Below, one piece after another: positions 29,329-37,579 of a stretch of DNA of 64,000 nt. Source of the DNA: Desulfosoma sp. (lineage in GTDB: Bacteria; Desulfobacterota; Syntrophobacteria; Syntrophobacterales; DSM-9756); assembly GCA_037481875.1 (NCBI GenBank), contig JBBFKY010000005.1, positions 62,001 through 126,000 on the forward strand, in the 5' to 3' direction. Every line of letters begins with the position of its first letter. Position 1 is the stretch's first letter. The translations under genes and the position numbers were made by a program. Below the pieces are notes generated by a model. The model was not told the DNA's origin and made no database searches. It saw only the letters and a list, made by a program, of their open reading frames with translations.

Positions 29329-30885
29329 TCAATTCTCTTCCACAGTGATTTCATACTGCTCCACATGAAAGTTACGTTCCCCCTGAACATGAAAACAGGC
29401 GTGCAGGGCTTCTTCCAGCCTTTCTAAAGAGGCGCGTTCTTCGTCCAGAAGTCTGGCCGCCACACGCGGGTGCACTTGAATCAGCACATTGCGACCGAAA
29501 AGGTCCCTTTGTTCTCTTTGAATTTCTCGCAAGATTTCATAGCACAAGGTCTGGGTGGACTTGAGCTGCCCGTGCCCTTCACAATAGAAACAGGGCTCGC
29601 AGAGTGTTCGTCCGATGCTTTCCCGGGTTCGTTTTCGGGTCATTTCAATAAGGCCCAGCTCCGACATGCGCAAGATGTTGGTTTTGCTCTTGTCTTTGCG
29701 CACAGCTTCCTTCAAGGCGTTAAAAACCTTTTCGCGATTAGCCTCCTTTTCCATGTCGATAAAATCAATGATGATGATACCTCCGATATTTCGAAGCCTC
29801 AGCTGGCAGGCGATTTCCTTGACGGCTTCCAGATTGGTTTTGAGAATGGTTTCTTCCAGGTTCCGCTTGCCCACGTAACGACCGGTATTGACATCAATGG
29901 CTGTAAGAGCTTCCGTGGTTTCTATGACGATATAGCCCCCGGACTTCAGCCAGATCTTCTTGCTGAGCGCCCTTTGCACCTCCATCTCGATTCCGTAGGC
30001 GTCAAAGATGGGTTCGGAACCTTCGTAAAGCTCGATGCCGTTTTTCAAGGAAGGCAAAAAGGTTTCCGTAAACTGCAACACTTTCTTGTACTCTTGGGGG
30101 TTATCAATGACAAGGCGGTCCACTTCCTTGGTGAAAAGATCTCGAACGGCTCTCAGGGTGATATCCAAATCCCGGTACACCAGGGACGGGACCGGAGCGT
30201 TTTCGGAGCGGCGCTGAATGTTTTGCCACAGCTTGAGCAGGAACTCCATTTCCGCCTGAATCTTTTCAGCGTCTTCACCTTCGGCCGCCGTCCGCACGAT
30301 GAAGCCGCAATGAGCCGGCTTGATGTCAAGGACCAGGTCCCTCAGGCGCTTGCGTTCCTTTTCGTCTTCGATACGGCGAGAAACCCCCACATGGTCCATG
30401 AGGGGCATGAGCACCAGGTTTCTTCCCGGTAATGTCACATGGGTGGTGATTCTCGCCCCTTTGTTTCCCAAGGGTTCCTTGGCCACCTGCACAAGAATTT
30501 CCTGACCTTCCCGTAATCTGTCTTCAATGGGAAGATCCGGAAGTTGTCTTTCTTCCAGCGGTGTCTCGGAATCCCCTGTGACTTGGTAAGGTTCCGGCTC
30601 TTGGGGTTCTTCCCGTTCGGGTGTGGCATCCTGAAAAATCTGATCCATTTCCATTAAAGGATGGTGGACATCACTCACATACAAGAAAGCTGCCTTCTCC
30701 AGGCCGATATCCACAAAGGCTGCCTGCATTCCGGGAAGGACACGAACCACACGTCCCTTATAGATATTGCCGGCAATGCCTGCATCGGACGCTCTTTCGA
30801 TGTAAAGTTCAGCCACCTGGCCGTTTTCTACAAGAGCGACCCGAGTCTCATAAAAATCGGCGTTGATGATCAATTCCGCAGCCAT
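29329..30885 (-). CDS. rng: Ribonuclease G
   Basis: RNase E/G endoribonuclease in rRNA 5'-end maturation and mRNA decay. 518 residues, with no long RNase E-type C-terminal scaffold. S1 RNA-binding domain at residues 35-120 (GNIYKGRVVRVLPGMQAAFVDIG). The catalytic Mg2+ aspartates lie in AIDVNTGRY and IIIDFIDME. The zinc-link is CEPC near residue 430. GAGGAA precedes the ATG, and the upstream radical-SAM gene ends three bases away, implying coupled expression. Confidence 0.94.
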   Translation of the reverse strand: MAAELIINADFYETRVALVENGQVAELYIERASDAGIAGNIYKGRVVRVLPGMQAAFVDIGLEKAAFLYVSDVHHPLMEMDQIFQDATPEREEPQEPEPYQVTGDSETPLEERQLPDLPIEDRLREGQEILVQVAKEPLGNKGARITTHVTLPGRNLVLMPLMDHVGVSRRIEDEKERKRLRDLVLDIKPAHCGFIVRTAAEGEDAEKIQAEMEFLLKLWQNIQRRSENAPVPSLVYRDLDITLRAVRDLFTKEVDRLVIDNPQEYKKVLQFTETFLPSLKNGIELYEGSEPIFDAYGIEMEVQRALSKKIWLKSGGYIVIETTEALTAIDVNTGRYVGKRNLEETILKTNLEAVKEIACQLRLRNIGGIIIIDFIDMEKEANREKVFNALKEAVRKDKSKTNILRMSELGLIEMTRKRTRESIGRTLCEPCFYCEGHGQLKSTQTLCYEILREIQREQRDLFGRNVLIQVHPRVAARLLDEERASLERLEEALHACFHVQGERNFHVEQYEITVEEN

Positions 30886-30888
30886 CGT

Positions 30889-33408
30889 TCATTCCTCTAA
30901 GGGCGCCACGGAGACTTTGCACAATCGGCACGCCTTGAAAAGGTCGCCGGCTTCCGGCAACAACACTTCAAGAAAGCTCTGCGGCCGAAAACGTGCCGTG
31001 GCTCGTTCCACAAGTTCCATGGCCACGGTGGTTGCATCGAGGCGACGTATGGAAAGTAAGACATCGGCGCATCGAACCTCAACGTGCCCTCTTTTGGTCT
31101 TTTTGCTAACCAAGTGATCCGCGCATGCGGCATAGCGAGTTATGATAGCTTCCGCCAGTTCTTCGGTCAAACCGGAAAGACGATAGGTCACTCGAAACGC
31201 TGTGGCTTTTCGAGGGGTTTCGTCAGAACGGGTCGCGTGGAGCACACGAAAACCTTGCGGTAAAACCGCGTTGAGACGCTTTACGATTTCCGTTTCGGCC
31301 ACAGGCTCTCGCAACTGAATGGTCGCTTCCTCCACTTCGCTTTCCATCCCCACCGGCAGAGCTTCTCGAAAGGAAACCTTGGCATGGGGATGATACCCTT
31401 GGGTATAAGTCACCGGAAGCCCGGAGCGGCGCAGGGCCCTTTCCATGATGCGGTTCATTTCCAACTGGCCGTAGAAACGGGCTTGGTCCTTTTTAGCGAA
31501 CCGCAGCGTGTACGCATAAAGAATCTTGGGGGCTTCAGCGGGCACAGCGACCCGTGGCACAATCTCGGGCTTGAAGTCCTCAATGAGCTGTGGTTTCACA
31601 TGGACTCCGTCACAGGCACCGCATCCGAAGCAGGATTCCCAACGACAATCCCCCGTTCGCTCATAGGCCAGGGCTTTTTCCCATTCCCTCCACAGATAGC
31701 TCTTGAGCACCCCGGCACTGAGATGGTCCCATGGCAGAGGATTCGAGGCGCCAAGGGAGCGCTGCGCTTCAACGTCGGCGTTCAGACCCGCTTCGGCAAA
31801 AGCCTTGTCCCAGATGTTCCGCTGAAAGAGCTCGTCCCAAGCATCAAAGCGGGCACCTTTGCGCCAGGCAGCCTCCACCACCCTTGCGAAACGCCGATCC
31901 CCTCGGGCCAAAGCCGCCTCTAGAACACTCAGGTCGGGATGGTGCCATTTCAATCGTAGACCTGGACGTTTCAACCGCTCCTTAAGAAAATCCAGTCGAC
32001 GGTTTATTTCCCCTCTGGCGATCTGCCCCGTCCATTGAAAGGGTGTCATGGGCTTTGGCACAAAGGTCGAAACCGCCACGTGCACTCCGGCTCGATATGG
32101 TTTTCCCAACTGCCAAACTCGAAGGCTCAAACGGACGATTTCGTCGAGGTCTTCCAAGGTTTCTGTAGGAAGGCCCATCATGAAGTAGAGCTTGATGCCT
32201 TTCCAGCCCAGACGGTAGGCATCCTTGACGGTCTCGTAGAGATCCTCTTCTTCGATGTTCTTGTTGATAAGGCATCGAAGACGACGACTCCCTGCTTCCG
32301 GAGCCACCGTAAATCCCGTTTTGCGTACGCGGCGAATGCACTCCATGAAGTCCTGGGAAAGGGTCCCGACCCGCATGGAAGGAAAAGAGAGAGCCACACG
32401 ACGTCCTTCCATTTCCTGCATGACAGCGTGAAGCAACCAGCCAAGCTGGCAGTAGTCCCCTGTACTTAAAGAGAGCAAGGACACCTCTTCAAAGCCGGTT
32501 TCAGTAACAGCCCGACAGGCCTTTTCCAAAAGATTCTTTGGATGGCGCTCCCGAACAGGGCGATACACGAAACCCGCCTGGCAAAACCGGCAGCCTCGAG
32601 TGCATCCTCGAGCGATCTCCAGTCCTAAGCGGTCATGCACAATCTCCACCAAGGGAACCAAAGGACGTTCCGGCAGAGGGCTTTCCAGGTCCAAATCCGT
32701 AACGACCCTCTTTCTGACAGAGGTGTAATCGGCAAACTGGGGTTGGAGCCCCATGAATCGGCCCGCAGTGTCATAATGCGGTTCAAAAAAACAAGGGACA
32801 TAAATACCGGGGAGACGACGTATCCCTTCAAGAAATTCGCGTCGAGTCCCCCGGGACGCTTTCCAATCTCGGTAAGCCTGCGTCAGATCCGTCAGGACCT
32901 GTTCGCCTTCCCCTAGAACGATGAGATCGAAAAAAGGCGCCAAAGGTTCCGGATTGTATGCACAAGGGCCTCCGGCAATGACAAAGGGATGCGAAAGATC
33001 TCGATCTTCACTGTGAAGGGGAATGCCGGCCAAATCCAGAATCGTCAAAATGTTCGTGTAGCTTAGTTCGTACTGAAGACTGAAACCGAGGAAATCAAAG
33101 TCCTTGAGCGGACGTCGGCTTTCTAAGGCATAGAGAAGCTTGCGGGTTTCTTTAAGGCGCTTTTCAAAGTCGGGCCAGGGAGCATACACGCGGTCCGCCA
33201 GGACGCCTTCCATGTCATTCAAGCGATGGTAAAGGAGTTGTATGCCGAGGTGGCTCATGCCCACTTCATACACATCGGGAAAGGCTAAGACGTAGCGGAC
33301 ATCAGCCTCTTCAAATCTCTTGGCGCGGGCATGAATTTCACCGCCCAGATACCGCCCGGGGCGTTGAATTTCCAGAAGAAGCCGGTCCAAAAGATCACTC
33401 GACAACAT
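30889..33408 (-). CDS. Radical-SAM fusion protein with C-terminal DUF2344 domain
   Basis: 839-residue protein of the rSAM fusion type (TIGR03960 plus TIGR03936/DUF2344). An N-terminal B12-binding-like region (FPDVYEVGMSHLGIQLLY, GGPCAYNPEPLAPFFD) precedes a radical-SAM domain with C269, C273, C276 (RGCTRGCRFCQAG). A short cysteine cluster SCFGCGACDG follows near residue 600, then the DUF2344 domain (about 640-839). Its function is unknown. It often adjoins rng, suggesting a role in RNA or ribosome modification, but this is only association. ATG 33408 is preferred because AGGGG lies eight bases upstream and family similarity starts there. Confidence 0.88.
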   Translation of the reverse strand: MLSSDLLDRLLLEIQRPGRYLGGEIHARAKRFEEADVRYVLAFPDVYEVGMSHLGIQLLYHRLNDMEGVLADRVYAPWPDFEKRLKETRKLLYALESRRPLKDFDFLGFSLQYELSYTNILTILDLAGIPLHSEDRDLSHPFVIAGGPCAYNPEPLAPFFDLIVLGEGEQVLTDLTQAYRDWKASRGTRREFLEGIRRLPGIYVPCFFEPHYDTAGRFMGLQPQFADYTSVRKRVVTDLDLESPLPERPLVPLVEIVHDRLGLEIARGCTRGCRFCQAGFVYRPVRERHPKNLLEKACRAVTETGFEEVSLLSLSTGDYCQLGWLLHAVMQEMEGRRVALSFPSMRVGTLSQDFMECIRRVRKTGFTVAPEAGSRRLRCLINKNIEEEDLYETVKDAYRLGWKGIKLYFMMGLPTETLEDLDEIVRLSLRVWQLGKPYRAGVHVAVSTFVPKPMTPFQWTGQIARGEINRRLDFLKERLKRPGLRLKWHHPDLSVLEAALARGDRRFARVVEAAWRKGARFDAWDELFQRNIWDKAFAEAGLNADVEAQRSLGASNPLPWDHLSAGVLKSYLWREWEKALAYERTGDCRWESCFGCGACDGVHVKPQLIEDFKPEIVPRVAVPAEAPKILYAYTLRFAKKDQARFYGQLEMNRIMERALRRSGLPVTYTQGYHPHAKVSFREALPVGMESEVEEATIQLREPVAETEIVKRLNAVLPQGFRVLHATRSDETPRKATAFRVTYRLSGLTEELAEAIITRYAACADHLVSKKTKRGHVEVRCADVLLSIRRLDATTVAMELVERATARFRPQSFLEVLLPEAGDLFKACRLCKVSVAPLEE

Positions 33409-33744
33409 TCCCTTGTCCCCTGAAATTTCTTCAACCATCTCTTGAGTATGTCCGTCAATCAATACGTGACGGCTTCCATGGTCGAAGCAGTATGTCCGTC
33501 TTCGAGCCTACCAATGCCTGGGAAACCTTCACTCCTCTATGGGCTTTCCCTGCCTGATGGACTCCAGGCTGCCAGTGCCGGGGAAGCCTCATGACCACCC
33601 TGGAGGAGCGGACCTCCGTGTCCGCCTCAACTTTTCGGGAAACGTCGTCATTTGCGAACAAGCACTTGGAGATTTCCGGTCAGACTTCATGAACCTATCC
33701 CGGCCACTGCGACACACGACGACCGACTCCCGACCCGCTGTGTT
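33409..33744. repeat. Intergenic region with GC-rich palindrome
   Basis: 336 bases between the radical-SAM gene and the IscS-like gene. GCGGAC/GTCCGC (33608-33625) with flanking GGAG/CCTC belongs to the scattered palindrome family. No gene or clear promoter is seen. Confidence 0.5.
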
Positions 33745-34923
33745 TCAGGCAGAGACTCGAGCGCTGTACAAAGGCGACATGGAACGCAGTCGGGACACCA
33801 CCGTAGCGAGCGTTTCCGCAGCTTGATGCACTTCGTCTTCGGTGTTTTCCTCGTCCAAAGTAAACAGCAGTGTTCCGTAGGCTCCGTCCCCCAAAAGCCC
33901 CATGGCCTCCAGCACATGAGACGCCTTGGCCGTGATGGACATGCACGCCGAGGCTCCGGCCACGCAAATACCTCTTAAATCCATGTGTAACAGCAGGGCT
34001 TCCCCTTCCACATAGCGAATGGACACATTGACCAAACCGGGAAGATGTCTTTCCGGGTGCCCATTGAAACGCACTTCATCGATCAGGCCCGAGATACGTT
34101 CCCGTAAAAGCTTTTCCAGCCGAATACACCGTTCCATTTTGGCCGAAAGCCTTAACCGCACGCGCTCCGCAGCAGCCCCCAATCCCACAATGCCGGCGAC
34201 ATTTTCGGTTCCGGTTCGGCGCCCGTCTTCTTGACCTCCGCCATGAAAAAGGGGCCACAAAGAGGTTCCTTTCCGGCAGTAAAGCGCTCCGGCGCCTTTG
34301 GGACCGTTGAACTGGTTCGCTGCAAGGCTAAGCAGATCCACACCCAAAGCATTCACGTCGACGGGAATGCGACCAACCGAGGCGATGGCGTCCGTGTGCA
34401 ACAGGGCTCCATGCTCATGGACCACAGCGGCAATATCCGCCAGAGATTGAATGGTGCCCACTTCATTGTTGGCGTGCATAATGGACACGAGCACGGTATC
34501 CGGCCGCATGGCTCTTTTGACATCTTTCGGGTCCACCCAACCATAGTGGTCCACAGGAACCAAGGTGACGGTAAAGCCGAACCTTTCCAAGGCCTTGGCG
34601 GCATAAAGGACGGAATAGTGTTCGATGGCCGAAACCACCAGATGCCGCCCCTCGTGCATGCGTTGAAAGGCGACGCCCTTGACGGCGAGGTTGTTCGCTT
34701 CGGTACCTCCGGACGTAAAGATGATTTCCTCGGGTTCCGCTCCGATAAGCGCCGCCGTCTGGGATCGCGCCTTAAAGATGGCATCCTGAGGCGCCTCGCC
34801 CAGATGATGAATACTGGCGGGATTCCCGAAATGTTCCACCAGAAAAGGTTTCATAGCTTCAAAAACTTCCATCGCCAAAGGCGTTCCCGCAATATGATCC
34901 ATATAGATTCTTCGACCGTCCAT
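33745..34923 (-). CDS. IscS/NifS-like protein lacking the PLP lysine
   Basis: 392-residue fold-type I aminotransferase-like protein of the cysteine desulfurase family, but with a disabled cofactor site. The PLP lysine of the SGHK..GPKG motif is Gln204 (AANQFNGPKG), the preceding His is Asn203, and the Gln that contacts PLP (+3 after Asp178) is Ala181. His102 and the sulfur-carrying loop cysteine C327 (GASACMS) are kept, as is HANNEVGT. The pattern closely resembles Archaeoglobus fulgidus IscS2, which has Asp in place of the lysine, binds no PLP and still scaffolds Fe-S assembly with IscU; the C-terminal RLRSMSPLY is shared with my recollection of that protein. Likely a sulfide-fed Fe-S scaffold. 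No iscU adjoins. Confidence 0.88.
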   Translation of the reverse strand: MDGRRIYMDHIAGTPLAMEVFEAMKPFLVEHFGNPASIHHLGEAPQDAIFKARSQTAALIGAEPEEIIFTSGGTEANNLAVKGVAFQRMHEGRHLVVSAIEHYSVLYAAKALERFGFTVTLVPVDHYGWVDPKDVKRAMRPDTVLVSIMHANNEVGTIQSLADIAAVVHEHGALLHTDAIASVGRIPVDVNALGVDLLSLAANQFNGPKGAGALYCRKGTSLWPLFHGGGQEDGRRTGTENVAGIVGLGAAAERVRLRLSAKMERCIRLEKLLRERISGLIDEVRFNGHPERHLPGLVNVSIRYVEGEALLLHMDLRGICVAGASACMSITAKASHVLEAMGLLGDGAYGTLLFTLDEENTEDEVHQAAETLATVVSRLRSMSPLYSARVSA

Positions 34924-35840: not shown

Positions 35841-35867
35841 ACGCCTCCCCCGAGGGGAGGCGTTTTT
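35841..35867 (+). terminator. Rho-independent terminator
   Basis: ACGCCTCCCC/GGGGAGGCGT with a 3-base loop (CGA), followed by TTTTT. It closes the small membrane-protein gene and may also work for the convergent reductase gene, whose stop lies at its edge. Confidence 0.88.
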
Positions 35868-37579
35868 CATTTTGGCACAAGATTGTCTGAGGGCTTGGAG
35901 AGGTGAGACGTCGCCAGCCTCCACAGGGTGTAGGTGCGAAAGCCCCCGCTGAGATTTTTAGCCTGATACCCGTATTGGCGCAGCGCTCGAGCGGCCAGGT
36001 AAGAACGCTGGCCCACATAGCAATAGACCCAGATTTCCCGGTCCTTTGGCAGTTCCGCCATACGCTGCCGTAATCGCCCCAGAGGAATGTGCACCGCTCC
36101 CTCAATGTGCCCGCGTCGGTATTCAAACGCCTCACGCACATCGAGCACAAAGACGTTCTCAGGGCGTTGATCCATCTCGTCGGCATGAATCACTTCCACA
36201 TCTCCTCGAACCACATTGGCAGCGATCATGCCGGCAAGGTTCACGGGATCCTTGGCGGATCCAAACTGTGGAGCGTAGCACAGCTCAGCCTCTTCCAGGT
36301 CAAAAACGGTGCCGCCTTTCTGAACGGCCATGGCAATAACGTCTGTGCGCCGCACGGCTCCCTTTTTGCCCACCGCCTGAAATCCTAGAATTTTTCCATC
36401 CTTCTTGGAAAAAATGAGCTTCATGGCAATGGTTTCGGCGCCTGGGTAATAACTGGCGTGATGACCTGGATGAAGATAGATTTTTTCGCACCGGTAGGGT
36501 TCATCCCATAAGTTGAGGGATTTCAGAACCTTTTCGCTGGGCCCCGTCATGGCCAGGACCTGATCGAAAAGGCCGACCACGGCTGTCCCCTGAACGCCTC
36601 GAAAACGGACATCTCTTCCACATATGGCGTCGGCGGCAAGCCGCCCCTGTCTATTGGCAGGACCCGCTAAGGGAAGAAGGGTTTGTCGGCCCGTGATCAC
36701 GTGAAGCACCTCCACGGCGTCTCCTACGGCCCAAATGGATGGATCACTGGTCTGCATCTTTTCATTCACCAGAATGCCGCCAAGATGCCCCAAGGCAAGC
36801 CCGGCGTCTCGAGCCAACTGAACCTCAGGTCGCACACCCACGGCCACAATGACCAGTTGTGCCGATAGCTCCTCGCCGGAGCGAAGCCTTACCCTGAGTT
36901 CTTCATTTGATCCTCTCTCAATTTTTTCCACCTGGTTTCCCAAACGCAGATCCACCCCTTTTTCCCACAGTGTTTCCTGAAGCGGCCATACCATTTCGGG
37001 ATCACACAGAGGCATGATCTGGGGTTGCATTTCCACCAAAGTCACGTGCAACCCCCGTCGCACCAGATTTTCGGTCATCTCGAGCCCGATATAGCCGCCT
37101 CCTACGACAACAGCTTTCTGCGCATGTCTTTGATCGATCATGCGCCGAATTTCGCGACTGTCCGGAATGCTGCGTACAAAAAAGACACCGTGAAGATCGA
37201 GCCCAGGAATCGGCGGCCTTATTGGCGAGGCACCAGGCGATAGCACCAAGACATCATAGGGTTCCTCATACTCCCGACCCGCTTGATGATCTCGAATGAG
37301 AAGACGTCGGTTTTCTCGATCGATGCGCAGCACTTCCGAATGAAGGCGCACTTCGATACGGAACCTTTGTTGAAACATTTCGGGCGTCGCCACCAAAAGG
37401 TGTTCCTCACGACGAATCACGTCTCCCACGTAATAGGGAAGGCCGCAATTGGCGAAGGAGACAAAGGGTCCTTTTTCGAGAATGATGATTTCCGCCTTTT
37501 CATCGAGCCGGCGTGCCCGTGCCGCACTGGAAGCTCCTCCAGCAACACCTCCGACGATGCAAATACGCTTTCCCGCCAT
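35867..37579 (-). CDS. CoA-disulfide / NADH-dependent persulfide reductase with rhodanese domain
   Basis: 570-residue flavoprotein. FAD domain from IVGGVAGGASSAARARR; the redox Cys45 in FANCGLPYY is the single active cysteine typical of CoA-disulfide reductases; NAD(P)H domain VVVGGGYIGLEM. A C-terminal rhodanese domain (about 465-555) has its catalytic loop at Cys520 (YCYVGQRSY). This fusion matches CoADR-Rhd/Npsr enzymes that reduce polysulfide- or sulfur-derived persulfides with NADH. In a sulfidogen it probably deals with zero-valent sulfur. Monocistronic on the minus strand. Confidence 0.9.
   Translation of the reverse strand: MAGKRICIVGGVAGGASSAARARRLDEKAEIIILEKGPFVSFANCGLPYYVGDVIRREEHLLVATPEMFQQRFRIEVRLHSEVLRIDRENRRLLIRDHQAGREYEEPYDVLVLSPGASPIRPPIPGLDLHGVFFVRSIPDSREIRRMIDQRHAQKAVVVGGGYIGLEMTENLVRRGLHVTLVEMQPQIMPLCDPEMVWPLQETLWEKGVDLRLGNQVEKIERGSNEELRVRLRSGEELSAQLVIVAVGVRPEVQLARDAGLALGHLGGILVNEKMQTSDPSIWAVGDAVEVLHVITGRQTLLPLAGPANRQGRLAADAICGRDVRFRGVQGTAVVGLFDQVLAMTGPSEKVLKSLNLWDEPYRCEKIYLHPGHHASYYPGAETIAMKLIFSKKDGKILGFQAVGKKGAVRRTDVIAMAVQKGGTVFDLEEAELCYAPQFGSAKDPVNLAGMIAANVVRGDVEVIHADEMDQRPENVFVLDVREAFEYRRGHIEGAVHIPLGRLRQRMAELPKDREIWVYCYVGQRSYLAARALRQYGYQAKNLSGGFRTYTLWRLATSHLSKPSDNLVPK

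Follow-up and report, generated by a model that had tools for sequence, protein, structure and literature searches.

An IscS-like protein without the residues for cysteine desulfuration

How sulfur is fed into Fe-S clusters in sulfide-rich anaerobes is an open question. The analysed stretch of 64,000 nucleotides (the window) carries on its minus strand an intact open reading frame (33745..34923) for a NifS/IscS homologue of 392 residues, designated P0001 in our comparisons. The nearest named record is a metagenome-assembled genome (MAG) labelled uncultured Desulfosoma sp., from which we infer that the host is probably a sulfate reducer of the Desulfosoma group. The protein matched the Pfam family Aminotran_5, and its scores were under the equivalog cut-offs of the NCBIfam models for NifS (TIGR03402, 440.5 bits against 530.75) and for TIGR02006 (354 against 643.2). 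Its AlphaFold2 model (pLDDT 90) has the complete cysteine desulfurase fold and matched human Nfs1 (Z 54.0), Escherichia coli IscS (51.8) and Archaeoglobus fulgidus IscS (51.3-51.4).

Alignment located the changes in the active site, all encoded on the minus strand. In the motif SLAANQFNGPKG (AANQFNGPKG), the PLP Schiff-base lysine (Lys206 of E. coli IscS) is replaced by Gln204 (34312..34314) and the PLP-phosphate histidine (His205) by Asn203 (34315..34317), while Ala201 occupies the position of Ser203. Gln183, which contacts PLP and substrate, is replaced by Ala181 (34381..34383), and the arginine that binds the substrate carboxylate (Arg354 of IscS, Arg379 of SufS) by Leu353 (33865..33867). 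In cysteine desulfurases, Arg379, Asn175 and a nearby Gln have been proposed to bind the carboxylate (PMC3343029). The sulfur-accepting loop cysteine is kept as Cys327 (33943..33945), corresponding to Cys328 in E. coli and Cys321 in A. fulgidus IscS2 (AfIscS2). The AfIscS2 reference sequence was verified against PDB 4eb5. The E. coli IscS and SufS sequences used agree with the established residue numbers, K206/C328 and K226/C364/R379.

The preliminary description had given the substitutions at residues 181, 203 and 204 and the retention of Cys327 exactly, residue numbers included. It had missed the change from Ser203 to Ala201, the replacement of the substrate arginine by Leu353 and the conserved C-terminal tail discussed below. 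The protein thus resembles the NifS/IscS cysteine desulfurases (E. coli IscS, TIGR03402, TIGR02006) in fold, loop cysteine and IscU-docking tail, and differs from them by the replacement of Lys206, His205, Gln183 and Arg354 and by its scores under the equivalog cut-offs. With Gln204 for the Schiff-base lysine and with Leu353 and Ala181 for the substrate arginine and glutamine, two defining features are unmet, and, judged from its sequence, the protein is not a cysteine desulfurase in the functional sense.

Whether PLP is absent as well is a separate matter. It had been suggested that loss of the lysine removes the cofactor; the lysine is indeed lost, but this does not imply that PLP is absent, as PLP is drawn in the A. 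fulgidus IscS-IscU complex (PMC9769115). Asp178, His102, Thr74 and Thr239 are still present in the PLP site (three of them being Asp180, His104 and Thr243 in E. coli numbering), and on this basis non-covalent binding of PLP cannot be excluded. One may go further and suppose that the protein is still a PLP-dependent cysteine desulfurase, acting through non-covalent PLP or another lysine, for which Lys82 would be the candidate since it is invariant in the bacterial clade described below. However, Lys82 is no dedicated replacement, being 50% conserved in ordinary NifS proteins as well; the substrate arginine and glutamine were lost along with the lysine; and A. fulgidus IscS has no desulfurase activity (PMC7585200). 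We therefore regard retained desulfurase activity as very improbable.

The IscU-docking tail is kept

The C-terminal motif RLRSMSPLY (residues 378-386; 33766..33792) is identical to that of AfIscS2 and close to RLRDLSPLW in E. coli IscS. The IscU contact of E. coli IscS comprises Arg379-Lys391, and deletion of residues 376-404 abolishes binding (PMC2854127). The proposed check for a Lys-bearing homologue elsewhere in the genome did turn one up (L002, 46% identity), which lacks the docking tail. Since L002 is without the motif, the sole close IscS-like protein with a docking motif in this 99.6%-complete genome is the one predicted to be inactive.

The Lys-bearing type (L002, L097) has GAACHS at the loop cysteine and is conserved, without the tail, across the class. 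Two further class-V homologues of the genome have the lysine, one of which is a desulfurase-like gene directly adjoining an FdhD-like gene (L098, L003).

The gene is maintained by purifying selection

Orthologues of the window protein were found at 87-89% identity in the same genus, 76% in the sister genus and 63-73% in other Syntrophobacteria. Ala181, Cys327 and Leu353 were retained in the orthologues checked, and the lysine position was mostly Gln, with Ile in two proteins from another family. The dN/dS values of Desulfosoma-group orthologues against P0001 were 0.066-0.11, indicating strong purifying selection. The intact reading frame and low dN/dS rule out a pseudogene or frameshift, and a single-genome oddity or sequencing error is ruled out by the recurrence of the same residues in congeneric and confamilial genomes and in the bacterial clade.

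A bacterial clade with coupled loss of lysine and arginine

The same residues are shared with a clade of 51-60 bacterial homologues. Across 206 homologues, lysine and arginine were absent together in 113 and present together in 93, without a single mixed case; this co-loss in all 113 rules out homoplasy at one variable site. In a tree from which the lysine and glutamine motif columns had been excluded, all 43 sampled bacterial Lys-less proteins were monophyletic (bootstrap 99, SH-aLRT 90; the bootstrap had not fully settled). A wider set with the arginine columns also excluded placed 51 bacterial Lys-less proteins in one clade (SH-aLRT 99). Because the clade is recovered even without the motif columns, independent lysine losses within the bacterial group need not be invoked.

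Members belong to the Desulfobacterota and the Chloroflexota, the latter mostly Dehalococcoidia. Among the best Desulfobacterota matches outside the window's class, 22 of the 23 that were read lacked both lysine and arginine. The exact motif A[AG]NQFxGP occurred in 36 of 395 Desulfobacterota genomes, which is a lower bound since other residue pairs exist; the reversed control pattern gave one match among those listed. The lysine site is occupied by Q, E, I, A, P, S, T or R, and this variation means that no substitute catalyst is conserved in the clade. The loop cysteine is invariant.

A second Lys-less type (L102, L103, L308), from the same family and class, has Pro-Ala at the His-Lys site and lies in an operon tusA - nifS-like - rrf2 - iscU. 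Some Chloroflexota (L019, L020, L031, L234, L250, L259) keep both types, the Lys-less gene being located 0.7-2.0 kb from a Lys-bearing nifS.

The alignments and trees thus confirmed a large bacterial branch of Lys-less proteins, as had been suggested, while its PLP-free state and scaffold function are inferred. The proposed kinship with A. fulgidus IscS2 also held up at the level of the residues. AfIscS2 (PDB 4eb5, 4eb7, 4hvk; D199K mutant 4r5f) shares the fold (Z 51.3) at 46% identity across 376 residues and has likewise lost the lysine and the substrate arginine, with His changed to Asn and Gln to Ala, while keeping the loop cysteine and the SPLY tail. It differs in having Asp at the lysine site where the window protein has Gln. 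Its archaeal clade is always Asn-Asp (support 100/100) and stands beside the bacterial clade with a joint support of just 70/81, a grouping that quick trees left unresolved. One or two origins of the lysine loss are therefore both possible.

Gene neighbours of the relatives

We then compared the surroundings of Lys-less and Lys-bearing genes. Of 66 Lys-less loci, 47 had an iscU gene on the same strand, usually overlapping or touching, and iscU also adjoined the Lys-less gene in 18 of 22 additional Desulfobacterota loci. The link is not specific to Lys-less genes, since 56 of 72 Lys-bearing nifS genes also adjoin iscU. The sulfur-carrier genes behaved differently. Within 2.5 kb, tusA was found at 39 and dsrE at 33 of the 54 Lys-less loci outside the window's sub-clade, against none of the 72 Lys-bearing loci in either case (Fisher P-values 1.6e-20 and 2.2e-16, which overstate independence because the loci are related by descent). 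A sensitivity check, in which E. coli TusA and further TusA sequences were searched at E 0.01, matched 40 Lys-less loci and none of the control loci. A. fulgidus itself has the arrangement tusA-dsrE-iscS-iscU (L263, L264), so that the pairing with tusA and dsrE spans both domains. The two A. fulgidus IscS copies are 87% identical, each by dsrE and iscU, with tusA 0.4 kb or about 6 kb upstream.

These neighbours bear on the source of sulfur. External sulfide, as put forward in the preliminary description, has not been demonstrated as the source, and the TusA/DsrE genes beside many relatives make carrier-bound persulfide at least as good a candidate. They also make it possible, if unlikely, that the window protein acts as a sulfurtransferase and does not merely donate a ligand, in a relay that reverses the E. 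coli direction: TusA, DsrE or a rhodanese would hand persulfide to the loop cysteine of the inactive IscS, which would pass it to IscU. The presence of both carrier genes at many Lys-less and none of the Lys-bearing loci compared, their recurrence around A. fulgidus IscS and the invariant loop cysteine all fit such a relay. Against it, neither tusA nor dsrE was found beside the gene in the window or its sub-clade, and a genome with a Lys-less NifS-IscU pair (G014) gave no TusA match. The tusA genes of the window's genome lie elsewhere, one of them flanked by a selD-like gene and by the gene of a YeeE-like transporter (L329:5203-8999), which suggests a selenium or sulfur donor route.

The window locus and the separate IscU operon

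Also unlike A. fulgidus, where iscU, dsrE and tusA are adjacent, the window locus has no iscU beside the Lys-less gene, and none was found in its 12-locus sub-clade. The next gene downstream (minus strand, 30889..33462) encodes a B12-binding radical SAM protein (TIGR03960 with TIGR03936/DUF2344) and is directly adjacent in 10 of the 12 sub-clade loci, followed in 9 by the gene for RNase G (minus strand, 29329..30885). These stable neighbours, in place of iscU, weaken the case for an IscU partner and raise the possibility that the protein serves RNase G or the radical SAM protein and not the general Fe-S scaffold. We consider such a dedicated service improbable, as members of this family are paired with iscU in other lineages and the docking tail has been kept.

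Upstream (minus strand, 35867..37579) lies a gene that joins a pyridine-nucleotide disulfide oxidoreductase and a rhodanese domain in one protein and is found in the same place in two congeners (L104, L017). The fusion protein is a possible sulfur-handling neighbour that could supply sulfide or persulfide, a link that has not been shown.

The iscU gene of the window's genome is located in an operon encoding a NIL-ferredoxin, IscU, MnmA and MtaB, with SufCB near (L121:9979-13316, contig C2 of G000); this IscU met the cut-off of TIGR03419 (NifU_clost; 191.7 against 187.9 bits). Within the window's class, the operon was present in 13 of 13 genomes with an orthologue of the window protein and in 1 of 42 without (Fisher P-value 1e-11), or by genus in 8/8 and 0/17 (9e-7); these P-values, too, overstate independence, the genomes being related. 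The single genome with the operon and without an orthologue (G037) is a MAG of 87% completeness from the same genus as a positive. The other genomes checked have a longer NifU; wherever its neighbour was read, this was a Lys-bearing NifS. The composition of the NIL-ferredoxin operon suggests that sulfide feeds tRNA thiolation and Fe-S assembly with no dedicated desulfurase involved. Because IscU adjoins MnmA and MtaB, tRNA thiolation, and not Fe-S assembly in general, could be the pathway served.

A proposed PLP-independent partner of IscU

Taken together, we favor the view, at a probability of roughly 0.7, that the window protein works with the genome's IscU, independently of PLP, in sulfide- or persulfide-fed Fe-S assembly. 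This rests on the replacement of Lys, His, Gln, Ser and the substrate Arg while the cysteine and the docking tail stay, and equally on the coupled Lys/Arg loss, the single clade, the low dN/dS, the iscU linkage of relatives and the co-occurrence with the IscU operon. The protein would have lost cysteine desulfuration and kept the desulfurase fold, the mobile-loop Cys327 and the C-terminal docking helix. Its dimer would dock the IscU, and sulfur would enter as sulfide or persulfide, with Cys327 serving either as a temporary ligand of Fe or of the cluster or as the thiol through which sulfur is handed over. Sulfide is the likelier source in the Desulfosoma group, while for the TusA/DsrE-linked relatives a carrier relay suggests itself. 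There are no biochemical data for the loss of activity, the IscU binding, the source of sulfur or the ligand role of Cys327, all of which are inferred.

Known systems offer precedents for the single steps. A. fulgidus IscS provides a cysteine ligand rather than sulfur (PMC7585200), and in its complex with IscU this ligand is Cys321 (PMC9769115). In E. coli lacking iscS, clusters on IscU are built from H2S (PMC13015791). Methanosarcina acetivorans IscS1 is likewise an IscS homologue that lacks the catalytic lysine and has an IscU1 partner of its own (PMC7585200); it differs from the window protein in being archaeal, and it is insoluble when expressed alone. The minimal ISC system (MIS), consisting of a desulfurase and a scaffold, resembles the stand-alone pair of IscS-like protein and IscU, without other ISC parts, seen in most relatives. 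However, MIS is described as relying on a cysteine desulfurase (PMC12192291), whereas the window-type component is predicted to be inactive.

The Lys-less IscS proteins already known, AfIscS2 and M. acetivorans IscS1, are both archaeal. We found no bacterial Lys-less branch in the open-access literature searched, nor the coupled loss of lysine and arginine, the TusA/DsrE linkage or the co-occurrence with the NIL-ferredoxin/IscU/MnmA operon. An earlier mention is possible, since this search did not extend to the main papers on A. fulgidus or to the phylogeny of the MIS and SMS systems. More tentatively, the systems may form one cross-domain Fe-S module of sulfate-reducing and sulfide-habitat bacteria and Archaeoglobi, in which TusA/DsrE carriers deliver sulfur to a dead IscS, whose cysteine passes it to IscU in place of cysteine desulfuration, the Desulfosoma group being carrier-free and sulfide-fed; we think this reading less likely than not.

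A whole bacterial clade thus keeps, under purifying selection where measured, an IscS predicted to be inactive, beside IscU or co-inherited with it. The automatic label "cysteine desulfurase" is probably wrong for many genes of Desulfobacterota and Chloroflexota, and the TusA/DsrE linkage in two domains provides a genomic argument for the role of the inactive A. fulgidus IscS. The bacterial Lys-less systems are test cases for sulfide- or carrier-fed ISC assembly, in which a large bacterial family of inactive lookalikes probably aids the building of Fe-S clusters from sulfide or carrier-bound sulfur.
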